Part shown: in pieces, positions 1,584-36,486 of the stretch
Numbering within the stretch: position 1 is the first letter of the stretch
Layout: each line of letters begins with the position of its first letter
Assembly: GCF_012184385.1 (NCBI RefSeq)
Contig: NZ_VSRL01000041.1
Location: 15,928 to 52,413, forward strand
Origin: Lentzea indica
GTDB taxonomy: Bacteria; Actinomycetota; Actinomycetes; Mycobacteriales; Pseudonocardiaceae
Direction: 5' to 3'
DNA length: 36,486 nucleotides
Program-made: the position numbers and the translations under genes
The notes under the pieces: model-generated
Told to the model about the DNA's origin: nothing
The model's input: only the letters and a program-made list of their open reading frames with translations
Databases searched by the model: none

Positions 1584-4301
1584 GTGACTGTCGAGTACCG
1601 CGTGCTGGGGCCGTTGGAAGTACTGCTCGACGGCGAACCTGTCCCGGTGCCTGCCGGGCGCGGTCGAGTTCTGCTCGCGACGTTGTTGTTGCGTGCCAAC
1701 GAGTTCGTGTCGGTCGACGAGCTGGTTGAACGGGTGTGGGACGGCGAGCCGCCGGCCGCGGATCGGGCGCACAAGACATTGCAGACGGTCGTGATGCGGT
1801 TGCGGCAGTCGTTGGGGGAAGCCAACTGCGTGCGCACGTCGTCACGCGGTTACTCGGCCGAGGTGGAGCCGGAACAGCTCGACCTCACCCGGTTCCGGGC
1901 GCTGACGGCTCTCGGCGAGCGCCGTGCCGCGTTGGAGTTGTGGCGTGGGCCGGTGCTGGGCAACGTCGCGTCGGAGTCGTTGCACCGCGAAGACGTGCCT
2001 CAGCTGGTGGAGGAGCACGTCGTCGCGCTGGAACGGCGGATCGACGAGGACCTGGCCCGTGTCACCGACGTCCTGGTGCCTGAGCTGCGGTCACTGGTGC
2101 GGCAGCATCCGCTGCGGGAGACGTTCTGGGCGCAGTTGATGCTGGCCCTGCATCGGGCGGGCCAGCAGGCGGAGGCACTCACGGTCTACCAGGAGATCCG
2201 CACGCGTCTCGCCGACGAACTCGGTGTGGACCCCGGTCAACGGCTGCGCGAGGCGCATGAGCAGGTGCTGCGTGGTGAGGCGCCCGCTTCGTCGGTGGTG
2301 CCCCGCCAGCTCCCGCCGGCCCACCCGCACTTCGTCGGCCGCGAGCACGAGCTGGCGCGGCTGACCGAGATGCTCAGGATCCGGCCGGGCGAGCCGGTGC
2401 TGATCTCCGCGATCAACGGCATCGGTGGTGTTGGCAAGACCGCGCTCGCGCTGCGATGGGCACACCAGGTCGCCGACCGGTTCCCTGACGGTCAGCTCTA
2501 CGCGAACCTGCGCGGCTTCGACACGCGTGCCGAGCCGCTGGACCCGGTGTCGGTGACCCGCGACTTCCTGCTCGCGCTCGGCGTGCCGACGAAGGAGATC
2601 CCGGCGTCCGACGACGCGGTGATCGCCATGTACCGGTCGGTGTTGGCGCAGCGCCGGGCGCTGGTGGTGCTGGACAACGCCCGTGATGTGGATCAGGTCC
2701 GGCCGTTGTTGCCCGGCGGTGCTGCGAACCTGGTGCTGATCACCAGCCGCAACCGGTTGAGCGGGCTGGTCGCGCGTGAGGGTGCGCAGCCCGTCGCGTT
2801 GGACGTGCTGGACCAACAGGGCGCGGTCGATCTGCTGACCGAACGCATCGGCGCGGCACGTGTCGCCGCCGAGCCGGACGCCGTCTCGCGGCTGGTCAAG
2901 CGGTGTGCGGGACTTCCACTGGCGCTCGGCATCGTGGCCGCCCGCGCTGCCTACGGTGACTCGCTCACGGCACTGGCGGACGAGCTGGAACAGGAACGCC
3001 TCGACGCGCTCGACATCGACGATCCGATGACCGGCATCCGCGGGGTCTTCTCGTGGTCGTTGCGGTCGGTGAGCGAACCGGCGGCCAGGGTGTTCGTGCT
3101 GCTCGGCCTGCATCCAGGACCGGACTTCTCGATCGCGGCCGCGGCCAGCCTCGCGGCGCTGTCACCGGCAGAGGCCAGGCGGGCGCTCAATGAGCTCGTC
3201 GCCTGCAGCCTGGTCGGTGCGGCGAACACCGGGCGGTTCGCGTTGCACGACCTGCTTCGCGACTACGTCCAGGAGCGTGCTGCGGAGTTGCCTGACGAGC
3301 AGCGTCTCCCCGCGCGGCAGCGGATGTTCGACCACTACGTCCACATGACCTGGGCGGCCTGCGTACCGCTGGAAGGCGCCATCCGCTGGCCGGAACTGCC
3401 ACCACCAGCGGAGTTCGCGGTCGTCGAGCCCATCGCGGACGTCGATGCCAGCTACGGCTGGTACGAACCAGAGCACCAGGTGTTGCTGGGTGTGTTCGCC
3501 CAGCTGGAGGCCGTTGGGGCGGATGACGTCCTCTGGACCTACGCCTATTCGTTGCACAACTACCTGCTGCGCAGCTCACGTCTGGGTGAGGCCGCGGACA
3601 TCGAGGCGCGTGGGCTCGCCGCGGCGCAGCGCGAAGGCAGCGTCTTCGGGCAATCGCGCCTCAACCGCGCGCTGGCGGGCGCCTACATGGCGGCGAGGGA
3701 CCTGGTGAAGGCGGAGTTCCACATGGGTGAAGGGCTGCGCTGCGACGAGGAACTGGGCGACGAGAACGGAGTGTCGAACGTGTCGCGCGGGCTGGCCTTC
3801 CTGTGCGAACTGCAGGGCAAGCACGACGAGGGGCTGGCGGTCCTGCGCCGCATCCATCCGATGGCCGTCAACCTGAAGACCAAGTTCGAGAAAGCCAGCT
3901 ATCTCTCCGCCTACGGCAGAGCACATCACCTGGTGGGCGACAACGAGCGCGCGCTCGAGCTCTGCCTCGACGCGCAGGCGCTGTACGTCGAGCTCAACCG
4001 CCCGGCGGGGGACGTGTCCAGGAGCATGAACCACGAAACGCTGGCCGACATCTACACGGCACTCGGCAGGCACGCGGACGCGATCGAGAACTGCCAGGCG
4101 TCCGTGCGGATGCTGCGAGCCATCCGGGACATCCACAACCTCGCCGATGTGCTCGTGCAGCTGTCGAAGGCCCAGATCGCGGCGGGGGATCCCGACGCTG
4201 CCCGCGAGTCGCTCGACGAGGCGTTGTCCCTCTGCGAGCGGATGGAGGCGGGGAACGCGAACTCTCAGCGGGTGCGGGAGCTGCTCGCTTCACTGGACTA
4301 G
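1584..4301 (+). CDS. SARP-family regulator with DNA-binding, BTAD, NB-ARC and TPR domains
   Basis: Complete 905-residue AfsR-like regulator. Residues 1-95 are an OmpR-type winged helix (EYRVLGPLEVLLDG, then a typical VDELVERVW segment). Residues about 96-240 are the bacterial transcriptional activation domain (HPLRETFWAQLMLALHRAG, YQEIRTRLADELGVDPG). Residues about 255-520 are an NB-ARC/STAND NTPase with P-loop GIGGVGKTAL near residue 280, Walker B ALVVLDNA and GLPL motif CAGLPLAL. The rest is TPR-like. The GTG start is 4 nt after the previous stop, with GGAAGG about 11 nt upstream, so both copies are probably co-transcribed. SARPs usually activate secondary-metabolite genes by binding direct repeats near -35, but no biosynthetic cluster is in this window. 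The target is unknown. Confidence 0.93.
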   Translation: MTVEYRVLGPLEVLLDGEPVPVPAGRGRVLLATLLLRANEFVSVDELVERVWDGEPPAADRAHKTLQTVVMRLRQSLGEANCVRTSSRGYSAEVEPEQLDLTRFRALTALGERRAALELWRGPVLGNVASESLHREDVPQLVEEHVVALERRIDEDLARVTDVLVPELRSLVRQHPLRETFWAQLMLALHRAGQQAEALTVYQEIRTRLADELGVDPGQRLREAHEQVLRGEAPASSVVPRQLPPAHPHFVGREHELARLTEMLRIRPGEPVLISAINGIGGVGKTALALRWAHQVADRFPDGQLYANLRGFDTRAEPLDPVSVTRDFLLALGVPTKEIPASDDAVIAMYRSVLAQRRALVVLDNARDVDQVRPLLPGGAANLVLITSRNRLSGLVAREGAQPVALDVLDQQGAVDLLTERIGAARVAAEPDAVSRLVKRCAGLPLALGIVAARAAYGDSLTALADELEQERLDALDIDDPMTGIRGVFSWSLRSVSEPAARVFVLLGLHPGPDFSIAAAASLAALSPAEARRALNELVACSLVGAANTGRFALHDLLRDYVQERAAELPDEQRLPARQRMFDHYVHMTWAACVPLEGAIRWPELPPPAEFAVVEPIADVDASYGWYEPEHQVLLGVFAQLEAVGADDVLWTYAYSLHNYLLRSSRLGEAADIEARGLAAAQREGSVFGQSRLNRALAGAYMAARDLVKAEFHMGEGLRCDEELGDENGVSNVSRGLAFLCELQGKHDEGLAVLRRIHPMAVNLKTKFEKASYLSAYGRAHHLVGDNERALELCLDAQALYVELNRPAGDVSRSMNHETLADIYTALGRHADAIENCQASVRMLRAIRDIHNLADVLVQLSKAQIAAGDPDAARESLDEALSLCERMEAGNANSQRVRELLASLD

Positions 4302-14672: not shown

Positions 14673-14940
14673 GTCGGGTTGGGGTTGGTTGGCTGGGCGC
14701 TCTTGCCGTAGGTGGTTGTTGTGCGATGGCGGGTTGCGGTTGCGTGCTTTCCCCGGGGGCTCTGCCCCCAAACCCCCGGCAATCTGATCGGGGGTCCAGC
14801 GCCGTGCGCGGGTTGATGGCACGCCGGTTGCTTACGGCGGCTGCCTGTTGCGTGGGTGGGTTGCGTTTGGTTTGGGGTGGTCCCGCCTGCTGGCTTTGTG
14901 AAGGGCGGGCTCGGCTGCGCCTTCGCGGTGGCCTGTTGCT
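14673..14940. repeat. Dispersed intergenic repeat, copy 1
   Basis: This gene-free stretch between the divergent lolA-like and response-regulator genes shares a series of blocks with 36062-36400. They are a GC-rich hairpin (here GGGGGCTCTGCCCCC), then GCAATCTGATC, TCCAGCGCCG, GCGGGTTGATGGCACGCC, GGTTGC, GGGGTGGTCCCG and finally GTGAAGGGCGGGCTCGGCT. The blocks are in the same order and roughly the same spacing. It lacks the nested palindrome of copy 2. The rest of the 14573-14997 gap has no convincing gene; the only open frames overlap the repeat and look random. Confidence 0.8.
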
Positions 14941-35019: not shown

Positions 35020-35985
35020 TCAGTCGTTCGCGTGCAGTGCGGCGTTCAGTTCCACGCCGGTGCCCTTGCGGGCTTTGACCTTCACCGTGCCGGTCACCGA
35101 GTCCCGGATGAACAGCAGGTTCGACTGGCCGCTGAGGGTGATGGCCTTGACGACCTCGCCGTCGGGGAGCGTGACCTTGGTGCCCGCGGTGATGTAGAGG
35201 CCGGCCTCCACCACGCAGTCGTCGCCCAGCGAGATGCCCAGGCCCGCGTTGGCGCCGAGCAGGCAGCGTTCGCCCAGGGAGATGACCTGCTTGCCGCCCC
35301 CTGAGAGGGTGCCCATGATCGAGGCGCCGCCGCCCACGTCCGAGCCGTCGCCGACCACGACGCCGCCCGAGATGCGGCCCTCGACCATGCTGCTGCCCAG
35401 GGTGCCGGCGTTGAAGTTCACGAAACCCTCGTGCATGACCGTGGTGCCCGCCGCCAGGTGGGCGCCCAGGCGGACTCGGTCGGCGTCGCCGATCCTCACG
35501 CCGGACGGGACCACGTAGTCGACCATCCTCGCGAACTTGTCGACGCTGTAGACCGTGACCGGGCCCCTGGTGCGGAGCCTCGTACGGGTCTGTTCGAAGC
35601 CGTCCACCGCGCAGGGGCCGTGGTTCGTCCAGACGACGTTGGTGAGCAGGCCGAAGAGGCCGTCCAGGTTGGCGCCGTGGGGCTTGATCAGGCGGTGGCT
35701 GATGAGGTGCAGCCTCAGCCAGACGTCGTAGGTGTCTTGTGGGGCGGCTTCGAGGTTGATTGCTGCTCGGACTCCTACTACCTCTACGTCTCGCTCCGGG
35801 TCCTCGCCCAGGAGCTTGGCCGCCGATTCGCCCAGGGTTTCTGCGATTTCCGCTGACGACAGGCGGGTTGTGCCCAGGTCTCCTGCGTCTTCTGCGTCGC
35901 CCAGGGTTGGGGACGGGTACCAGGTGTCCAGGACGGTGCCGTCTGGGGTCACTGTGGCCAGGCCGATGCCGTATGCGGTGCTCAC
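35020..35985 (-). CDS. dapD: Tetrahydrodipicolinate N-succinyltransferase
   Basis: A 321-residue trimeric left-handed beta-helix enzyme that succinylates tetrahydrodipicolinate with succinyl-CoA, the committed step of the succinylase DAP pathway. It is the actinobacterial form: [20 protein letters not shown] at the N-terminus, then [60 protein letters not shown] and [20 protein letters not shown] with hexapeptide repeats. GTG start 7 nt after a TAGGCT box and without a ribosome binding site, so probably leaderless. Confidence 0.96.
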
Positions 35986-35992
35986 GGGGGTG

Positions 35993-35998
35993 AGCCTA
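35993..35998 (-). promoter_or_regulatory. Candidate -10 box for leaderless dapD
   Basis: On the minus strand TAGGCT (TAnnnT) is followed by CACCCCC and the dapD GTG at 35985. No -35 hexamer or ribosome binding site is recognisable. Confidence 0.4.
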
Positions 35999-36061
35999 GT
36001 CCGGGCGCCGTTTTTTCGTATGGTCGTCCCCCTGTGTCGTTGGCGGCTGCCGGTTTCGTGT

Positions 36062-36400
36062 TCGTAGGTGGTTGGGTTGCGTGGTTGTGTGGCGGTTGGG
36101 GTGGGTTTTCCTGGGGCTCCGCCCCAGACCCCGCCAATCTGATCAAAGACCTGTCCAGCGCCGCCTGCGGGTTGATGGCACGCCTGTTGCTTTTGGCGGC
36201 TTGCTGTTGCGTAGGTGTTTGGGGTGTGGGGTGGTCCCGTCACGAGTCGCACGGAGGCAGCCACACCCAGGGAGGAGAGTCAAGTCGACGAAAAGCGTGT
36301 CGACTTGACTCTCCTCCCTGGGCGCGGCAAAACGCGTCAGCACGACTCGTGACGGGACCACCCCACCGGCGTTGTGTGTGAAGGGCGGGCTCGGCTAATG
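36062..36400. repeat. Dispersed intergenic repeat, copy 2
   Basis: This shares ordered blocks with 14673-14940: a GC hairpin (here CTGGGGCTCCGCCCCAG), CCAATCTGATC, TCCAGCGCCG, GCGGGTTGATGGCACGCC, GGGGTGGTCCCG and GTGAAGGGCGGGCTCGGCT. It differs by holding a nested palindrome between the last two blocks. The gap from 35986 to the window end (501 bp) contains this repeat, the dapD promoter and no credible gene. The last 85 bases (36401-36486) are GC-rich with short inverted repeats (GAGTGCT/AGCACTC) and nothing recognised. Confidence 0.8.
36226..36366. repeat. Nested palindrome: two perfect 24-bp inverted repeats, one inside the other
   Basis: The outer arms at 36226-36249 and 36343-36366 are exact reverse complements over 24 bp (they begin GTGGGGTGGTCCCGTCACGA). 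The inner arms at 36266-36289 and 36299-36322 are also exact over 24 bp (they begin CCCAGGGAGGAGAGTCAAGT), separated by a 9-nt loop GAAAAGCGT. The spacers between outer and inner arms are 16 and 20 nt and unrelated; the right one has a small CGCG-GCAAAA-CGCG hairpin. The outer arm starts with GGGGTGGTCCCG of the host repeat. No target-site duplication is visible. Perfect pairing suggests recent origin, active maintenance, or a mobile fold-back element. Confidence 0.93.
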
Positions 36401-36486
36401 AGTGCTGAGCCGGCCGTTTCTGGCAGGCTCGGCCTGTGGCCGCTGGTGGGTGAGCACTCTGGCTCGGTGGAGTTGTGGAGTCCTTG

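Follow-up and report, generated by a model that had tools for sequence, protein, structure and literature searches.

What maintains two long palindromes, nested one inside the other, in the intergenic DNA next to dapD in Lentzea indica, given the usual instability of long perfect palindromes in bacteria? The window, by which we mean the whole 36,486-nucleotide stretch of DNA that was analysed, contains the following features (window positions).

35020..35985, minus strand: dapD, neighbour outside the unit (TIGR03535, 514 bits, above cut-off; orthologs in 24 of 24 genomes)
36050..36420, minus strand: composite unit, ends approximate, matching the second window copy in blocks; structure defined on copies in other genomes and RNA fold
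36226..36366, minus strand: two-tier palindrome, the core of the unit (R1 match 156.9 bits on the minus strand, 105.2 on the plus strand)
36226..36249, no strand: outer arm, 24 bp, perfect, partner 36343-36366
36343..36366, no strand: outer arm, 24 bp, perfect, partner 36226-36249
36260..36289, no strand: inner arm, 30 positions (24 perfect, 36266-36289), partner 36299-36328
36299..36328, no strand: inner arm, 30 positions (24 perfect, 36299-36322), partner 36260-36289
36290..36298, minus strand: apical loop ACGCTTTTC (minus-strand reading), almost invariant across the Lentzea family
36170..36184, minus strand: conserved 15-nt box GGCGTGCCATCAACC
36127..36152, minus strand: small hairpin region around TCAGATTG (36135-36142), from sequence and fold
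36112..36126, minus strand: small GC hairpin TGGGGCGGAGCCCCA, from sequence and fold
14673..14940, minus strand: second unit copy, palindrome lost except for one 12-nt arm end (14874-14885), with its box at 14811-14825

The first-pass annotation had described two perfect 24-bp inverted repeats nested within 36226-36366 around a 9-nt apex loop, and rechecking the letters confirmed their exact complementarity. The inner hairpin is longer than first noted, spanning 30 positions on each side, and the two A.C mismatches that the extension shows on the plus strand are G.U pairs on the minus strand. These palindromes are the sole perfect inverted repeats in the window with arms of at least 16 bp and a spacer of at most 150, and the random probability of one given 24-bp arm pair is about 6e-14 at the base composition of the window. 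Folded as single-stranded DNA, the palindrome region reaches a z of -11.1 (none of 200 shuffles as good), and the whole unit, folded as minus-strand RNA, a z of -13.1 (none of 100 shuffles as good).

The annotation had also raised the prospects of a single copy without relatives and of an assembly artefact such as a chimeric hairpin read. Neither is the case. Using R1, a covariance model built on an alignment of 31 copies (A1), we found 18 near-full copies in the window's own genome (9.97 Mb in 634 contigs), together with copies across Lentzea, and a chimeric read is excluded because many copies are present in other assemblies, among them the one-contig genome G002. Near-full copies listed elsewhere number 37 in G001, 23 in G023 (found by R1, none by DNA comparison) and 8 in G002, with short or cut copies in addition. 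Overall, R1 matches were obtained in 24 of 24 Lentzea genomes, with a best E<1e-20 in 15 and weaker best matches, down to 3.7e-4, in the other nine; DNA matches were obtained in 23 of the 24, own genome included, and copy number ranges from about 40 down to one copy or fragments. Many copies in the own assembly are located at contig ends, and because hairpins coincide with contig ends, a lone copy that is short or cut off needs careful reading if its assembly is fragmented.

Outside the genus, no DNA similarity was found in 16 genomes of other genera and no R1 match in three other-genus genomes. An exact 23-base loop-and-stem piece occurs in 39 stretches of one-genome-per-species contigs, of which 37 are Lentzea and two belong to a record named Nocardia sp. 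NRRL S-836 (name as recorded). A virus, plasmid or phage source was rejected, as the exact loop-and-stem pattern is absent from viral contigs and no similar DNA was found in plasmids or phages. None of the titles listed in searches of the open-licence literature for a prior description deals with the Lentzea element.

Around the palindrome lies a larger unit, about 350-400 bp long, of which it forms the core. Read along the folding strand, the unit has a GCGAAGCCGAAGGCGAGCCGTCCTT-like 5′ motif, sometimes in tandem, then the palindrome and, after a spacing of about 39 nt, the 15-nt box; two small hairpins, one around TCAGATTG and one around TGGGGCNGAGCCCCA, come next, followed by a tail that varies in length and contains tandem pieces. 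The limits of the unit were drawn from k-mers shared among 34 G001 and 22 G023 copies; counted from where the palindrome model starts, sharing among the 34 G001 copies increases over about -100 to -50 and has returned to background by about +400, and similarity among copies extends about 50-75 nt before the palindrome and 150-200 nt or more after it. Allowing A or T at one position, the exact box is found in 22 of the 24 Lentzea genomes, the reversed control giving none; it is absent from G009 and G023 and present one to four times in G003, G013, G015, G018 and G022. A palindrome was detected at 8 of the 22 boxes in G002, and the inner hairpin went unrecognised at 38 of 143 boxes, some of which may have other loops. 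By eye, outer-arm types go together with the sequence after the box. Also by eye, a further repeated sequence, perhaps the end of an insertion sequence, starts at the box position in both L059 and L060.

The annotation had noted that the copy at 14673-14940 has a single GGGGTGGTCCCG arm, which is correct, and had left two readings, the palindrome as an insertion or as what remains in a complete copy. The complete-copy side is favoured, as the 14.7-kb copy is best read, from its sequence, as a unit of the same kind, strand and box as the 36-kb copy, minus its palindrome. Elsewhere in the window, positions 1-300 and 2711-3010 form a 300-base direct repeat (94% identical), and more repeated blocks recur at the same 2710-base spacing, perhaps from a gene duplication.

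Pairing within the palindrome is conserved well beyond the window. Nearly all cells of A1 (99.5%) are paired, and both partners vary at 37 of its 56 pairs; none of 500 shuffles reached these values, and the signal collapses when partners are slid by one to three columns. Across 92 distinct copies (from 95 matching loci of 96 given, the better strand of each used), imperfect pairs on the strand equivalent to the window's minus strand comprise 257 G.U cells and 4 A.C cells, in an alignment whose fitting to the model favours pairing, not G.U over A.C by strand for a given palindrome. The imbalance persists when the two columns richest in G.U are left out (133 vs 4), and 18 pair columns hold G.U and 4 hold A.C. 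Since G.U on one strand is A.C on the other, the minus strand of the window is the one kept foldable. Such foldability suits RNA and single-stranded DNA alike, and a strong strand mutation bias is a possible alternative.

The fold is directional. In 69 of the 92 copies the sense strand gives the more stable predicted RNA fold, the GUCAA/UUGAC pairs are retained in 91 or 92 of 92, with a stem of varying length between them and the loop, and the direction of ACGCTTTTC is kept in 104 of the 105 hairpins that are linked to a box and recognised by the loop pattern. The sole case among these with an inverted 9-nt loop is L035/L070 (G006, the Lentzea pudingi record). The inner stem is nearly all Watson-Crick; G.U pairs lie mostly in the outer stem and junction, and one G.U column is present in 85 of the 92 copies. 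A protein-binding or recombination site in the form of a symmetric duplex, another of the annotation's candidates, is less likely, because neither the loop nor the junctions nor the wobble pairs are symmetric, and they keep one direction.

We next consider the history of individual sites. With dapD as the anchor for locating the orthologous site, the R1 element is found there in three of 24 genomes, namely G000, its relative G007 (same place) and G023, whose copy is contig-cut and has a form of its own. By eye, G015, G018 and G019 have unit sequence with no palindrome in view (the upstream contig of G018 being 262 bases), and the other 18 genomes have no unit sequence within the stretch examined by eye. 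At the rho site, the R1 element is likewise found in three of 24 genomes, and G000 retains the unit with a palindrome relic. For 12 G001 sites in five relatives, 50 of 60 cells were assessable (the other ten had no strong match or no retrieved sequence, and L149 is among them in all five relatives): the inner hairpin, scored at 12 bp or more, is present in 21, other parts only in 16, a class that includes some contig-end cuts, and nothing in 13, as judged by a motif test that may score a relic as empty (the L184 locus in G014 keeps part of an arm). No clear target duplication was seen in the filled/empty comparisons at dapD, rho and the 12 G001 loci, and unit ends vary. As many sites are common to several species, present movement is rare or absent.

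The annotation had proposed that several copies with conserved arms at different sites would support a mobile or maintained element, and genome searches returned this pattern: multiple copies that keep their pairing, lie at different sites and are present in some species and absent from others. Its more specific candidate, a mobile miniature fold-back element, has to be modified, as the palindrome is not free-standing but the core of the larger unit.

Where full 30-bp inner stems could be compared with G001, 15 of 16 differ, while the upstream flanks are 82-93% identical among the rows listed; the stems have thus been replaced as matched pairs at fixed places, plausibly by conversion from other copies or by template switching. 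Template switching is able to maintain stems, according to an excerpt of PMC8794818, and an inverted loop is a known template-switch product in the portion seen of PMC8604942, which the L035 loop fits. Of the short forms in the own genome, ten were read; most of these have no inner hairpin, and several are deleted between short direct repeats, an expected route of hairpin loss, although some short forms could in part be assembly or amplification errors.

The exchange of stems, the L035 loop, the deletions at short direct repeats and the nearly pure Watson-Crick inner stems are all in keeping with passive palindromic DNA, that is, old repeats kept perfect by template switching and ectopic gene conversion alone, with neither an enzyme nor a selected fold. 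Unless mutation is strongly strand-biased, however, such a process predicts neither the near-invariant loop with GUCAA/UUGAC, nor the G.U column and the G.U/A.C imbalance, nor the orientation by replication described below, and we regard it as very unlikely.

Orientation was examined relative to dnaA, which was located in all 13 genomes given. The strand lists used for orientation and gene context are samples from among the matches listed, and the multi-genome orientation counts include orthologs more than once. On contigs that bear dnaA, 24 of the 26 copies listed have their folding strand reading toward it (23 of 26 if G002 is not circular), and the same holds for 47 of 54 boxes among those listed (46 of 54 if G002 is linear), including G002 boxes without a detected palindrome. 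Neighbouring copies share a strand, per contig, in 61 of 67 listed cases, orthologs being counted repeatedly. In G001 only, neighbouring copies lie on one strand in 20 of 24 (permutation p = 0.0006), in a set that contains the contig-end copies C7 and C10, which have equal scores and may be one repeated region. Two G001 sites that break the rule, L161 by dnaA and L187 by contig majority, break it in G016 too, and the exceptions are thus inherited. Orientation following replication, with these copy and box counts, is what a fork-oriented mobile element would show. By the dnaA orientation rule used here, the foldable strand is the leading-strand template.

The same polarity also fits chromosome sites maintained by the host, where a host protein would bind the box and hairpin and read their direction relative to oriC, as with sites that guide FtsK or segregation. 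A KOPS-like site (a comparison from general knowledge) would combine a polar distribution with a bound host translocase, and of these the polarity is seen in the Lentzea copies. Orientation relative to dnaA, locations common to several species, the exact box in most genomes and the compliance of G002 boxes that have no detected palindrome all agree with this reading. A copy number that falls from about 40 to one copy or fragments, the few or missing exact boxes in seven genomes and the 13 empty orthologous cells do not, and a self-complementary, covarying hairpin is unnecessary for such sites. We consider host-maintained polar sites unlikely.

Next we examined the neighbouring genes, called with an in-house codon-usage caller after four of 60 loci (L163, L194, L198 and L201) were dropped for want of a loop. 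Among 23 copies with both neighbours called in range, 7 lie between convergent, 15 between tandem and 1 between divergent genes, and the tandem genes share the direction of the folding strand in 6 cases and oppose it in 9. Co-direction of the upstream gene with the folding strand was seen in 10 of 11 called cases in the own genome and in 27 of 39 in G001, G023 and G002; the downstream gene has the opposite direction in 23 of 30. These counts place the units after gene ends, and gene direction alone leaves the replication polarity without explanation. The annotation's strong bidirectional terminator is not supported: orientation tracks replication more than flanking genes, and a simple terminator scan of 35950-36486 gave no GC hairpin with T run at the palindrome, only two weak terminator-like sites at 36039-36054 and 36186-36200 (0.8 expected). 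The box contains a plus-strand ATG, but inspection by eye led us to drop a coding reading, because the length differences between copies are out of frame.

Placement after gene ends and co-direction with the upstream gene, a link that is possible, are what would be expected of a transcribed structured RNA, either a 3′ UTR or an independent small RNA, whose hairpin is selected for instance for mRNA stability, processing or protein binding; stem covariation and imperfections that are G.U rather than A.C would follow as well. Yet orientation also follows replication, tandem neighbours run more often against the folding strand than with it, downstream genes mostly oppose it, and copy number varies widely. 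Furthermore, no Rfam family (4227 models) was matched over its gathering score in the window, and a scan limited to sigma-70 found no promoter-like site in 35950-36486. We therefore think a structured RNA rather improbable, slightly more so than host-maintained sites.

Our preferred reading, to which we give not quite an even chance, is a genus-specific, non-autonomous, dispersed intergenic mobile element of about 350-400 bp with a two-tier hairpin core, oriented by the replication fork and kept palindromic by paired turnover. The sequences compared show that the unit has recognisable limits at many unrelated sites and that orthologous sites are filled, palindrome-deleted or empty; one strand is kept foldable, mostly reading toward oriC, and the two sides of each stem change together. 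A putative enzyme encoded elsewhere would recognise the folded single strand through its loop, GUCAA/UUGAC and wobble positions, and insertion at replication forks would set the orientation. Insertions would survive mainly after gene ends and not in promoter regions, stems would stay matched because other copies convert them and templates are switched, the fold itself being under some selection, and palindromes would be lost through hairpin deletion.

Several points count against this reading. The enzyme search described below found no partner, target duplication is not clear and unit ends vary, and many sites are common to several species. Co-direction with the upstream gene is better predicted by a transcribed RNA, the sense strand gives the more stable predicted RNA fold in no more than 69 of 92 copies, and the foldable strand is the leading-strand template, unlike the lagging-strand template of known single-strand transposons. 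A lagging-strand model may still apply, because the conserved G.U becomes an A.C mismatch when the lagging-strand template is read, and recognition of E. coli REP requires conserved mismatches (PMC8266576).

The search for a mobilising enzyme, which covered PF01797 (Y1), found none tied to the copies. Y1 transposases are encoded in 11 of the 24 Lentzea genomes, the own genome included, and are absent from the copy-rich G005, G006, G010 and G023, and none of 22 fetched Y1 stretches holds the element or the box; a Y1/RAYT partner is accordingly not supported.

Comparison with known systems places the element close to REP/REPIN sequences with their RAYTs, which, from extracts of PMC3116915 and PMC8266576, share dispersed intergenic palindromes, long single-strand hairpins, conserved mismatch positions and presence or loss between relatives. 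A GTAG-type tetranucleotide ahead of a 20-50 nt palindrome is a feature of REP/REPIN, and REP copies number hundreds or thousands, compared with up to about 40 for the Lentzea element (PMC8266576, in extract). Unlike REP/REPIN, the Lentzea copies have no tied RAYT/Y1, the unit is much larger, and it contains two nested long perfect stems. IS200/IS605 elements are alike in being hairpin-based, and the section available of PMC5371812 describes orientation set by replication for IS200/IS605, Tn7 and other insertion sequences; in contrast, no TnpA-like gene lies near the Lentzea copies in the stretches seen, and the foldable strand is, by our orientation rule, the leading-strand template. MITEs of DDE transposons, compared partly from general knowledge, are likewise short, non-coding and dispersed, with inverted repeats and filled/empty sites, whereas the Lentzea inverted repeats are internal rather than terminal, with strand-specific covariation and no clear target duplication. 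Collectively, the palindromic element is real, genus-wide in Lentzea, structured and polar, and is best called a variant of the dispersed palindromic repeats.

A bolder form of the mobile reading, which we find distinctly doubtful, is a new class of mobile element that would move as a folded single strand or via RNA, without a Y1 transposase, as a SINE-like unit. Such a unit would have a constant 5′ motif, a core of nested hairpins, a conserved box and hairpins on the 3′ side and a tandem tail of changing length, and it would insert in one direction at forks. Imperfections of the G.U type only, the variation in the tail and the orientation relative to the fork would then be expected. SINE-like retroelements, as generally understood, also combine a non-coding structured core, a defined 5′ motif and a tail of variable length; they are, however, known from eukaryotes.

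The palindrome is itself a neighbour of another element in G004, where an IS481-like insertion sequence adjoins the apical loop in 7 of 19 stretches (among L358-L364, L367 and L377:1820-3016), an eighth stretch, L362, being cut. Its 398-aa transposase scores 201.5 bits with NF033577, below the cut-off of 224, and rve is above cut-off. The flanks, taken from different contigs, suggest a 15-nt duplication, GACACGCTTTTCGTC, spanning the loop, and the hairpin tip seems to be a preferred target of this element.

Taken together, these results indicate that some Lentzea genomes hold dozens of long palindromes with clear strand and replication polarity, despite the usual instability of such sequences. 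In practical terms, many contig ends of the own assembly fall at these hairpins. About 100 aligned copies, together with orthologous sites in several species, provide a natural set for telling apart the causes of compensatory change, whether selection on the fold, gene conversion or template switching. If the element is mobile, its enzyme is apparently not the usual Y1/RAYT, and a mechanism would be added to those known.
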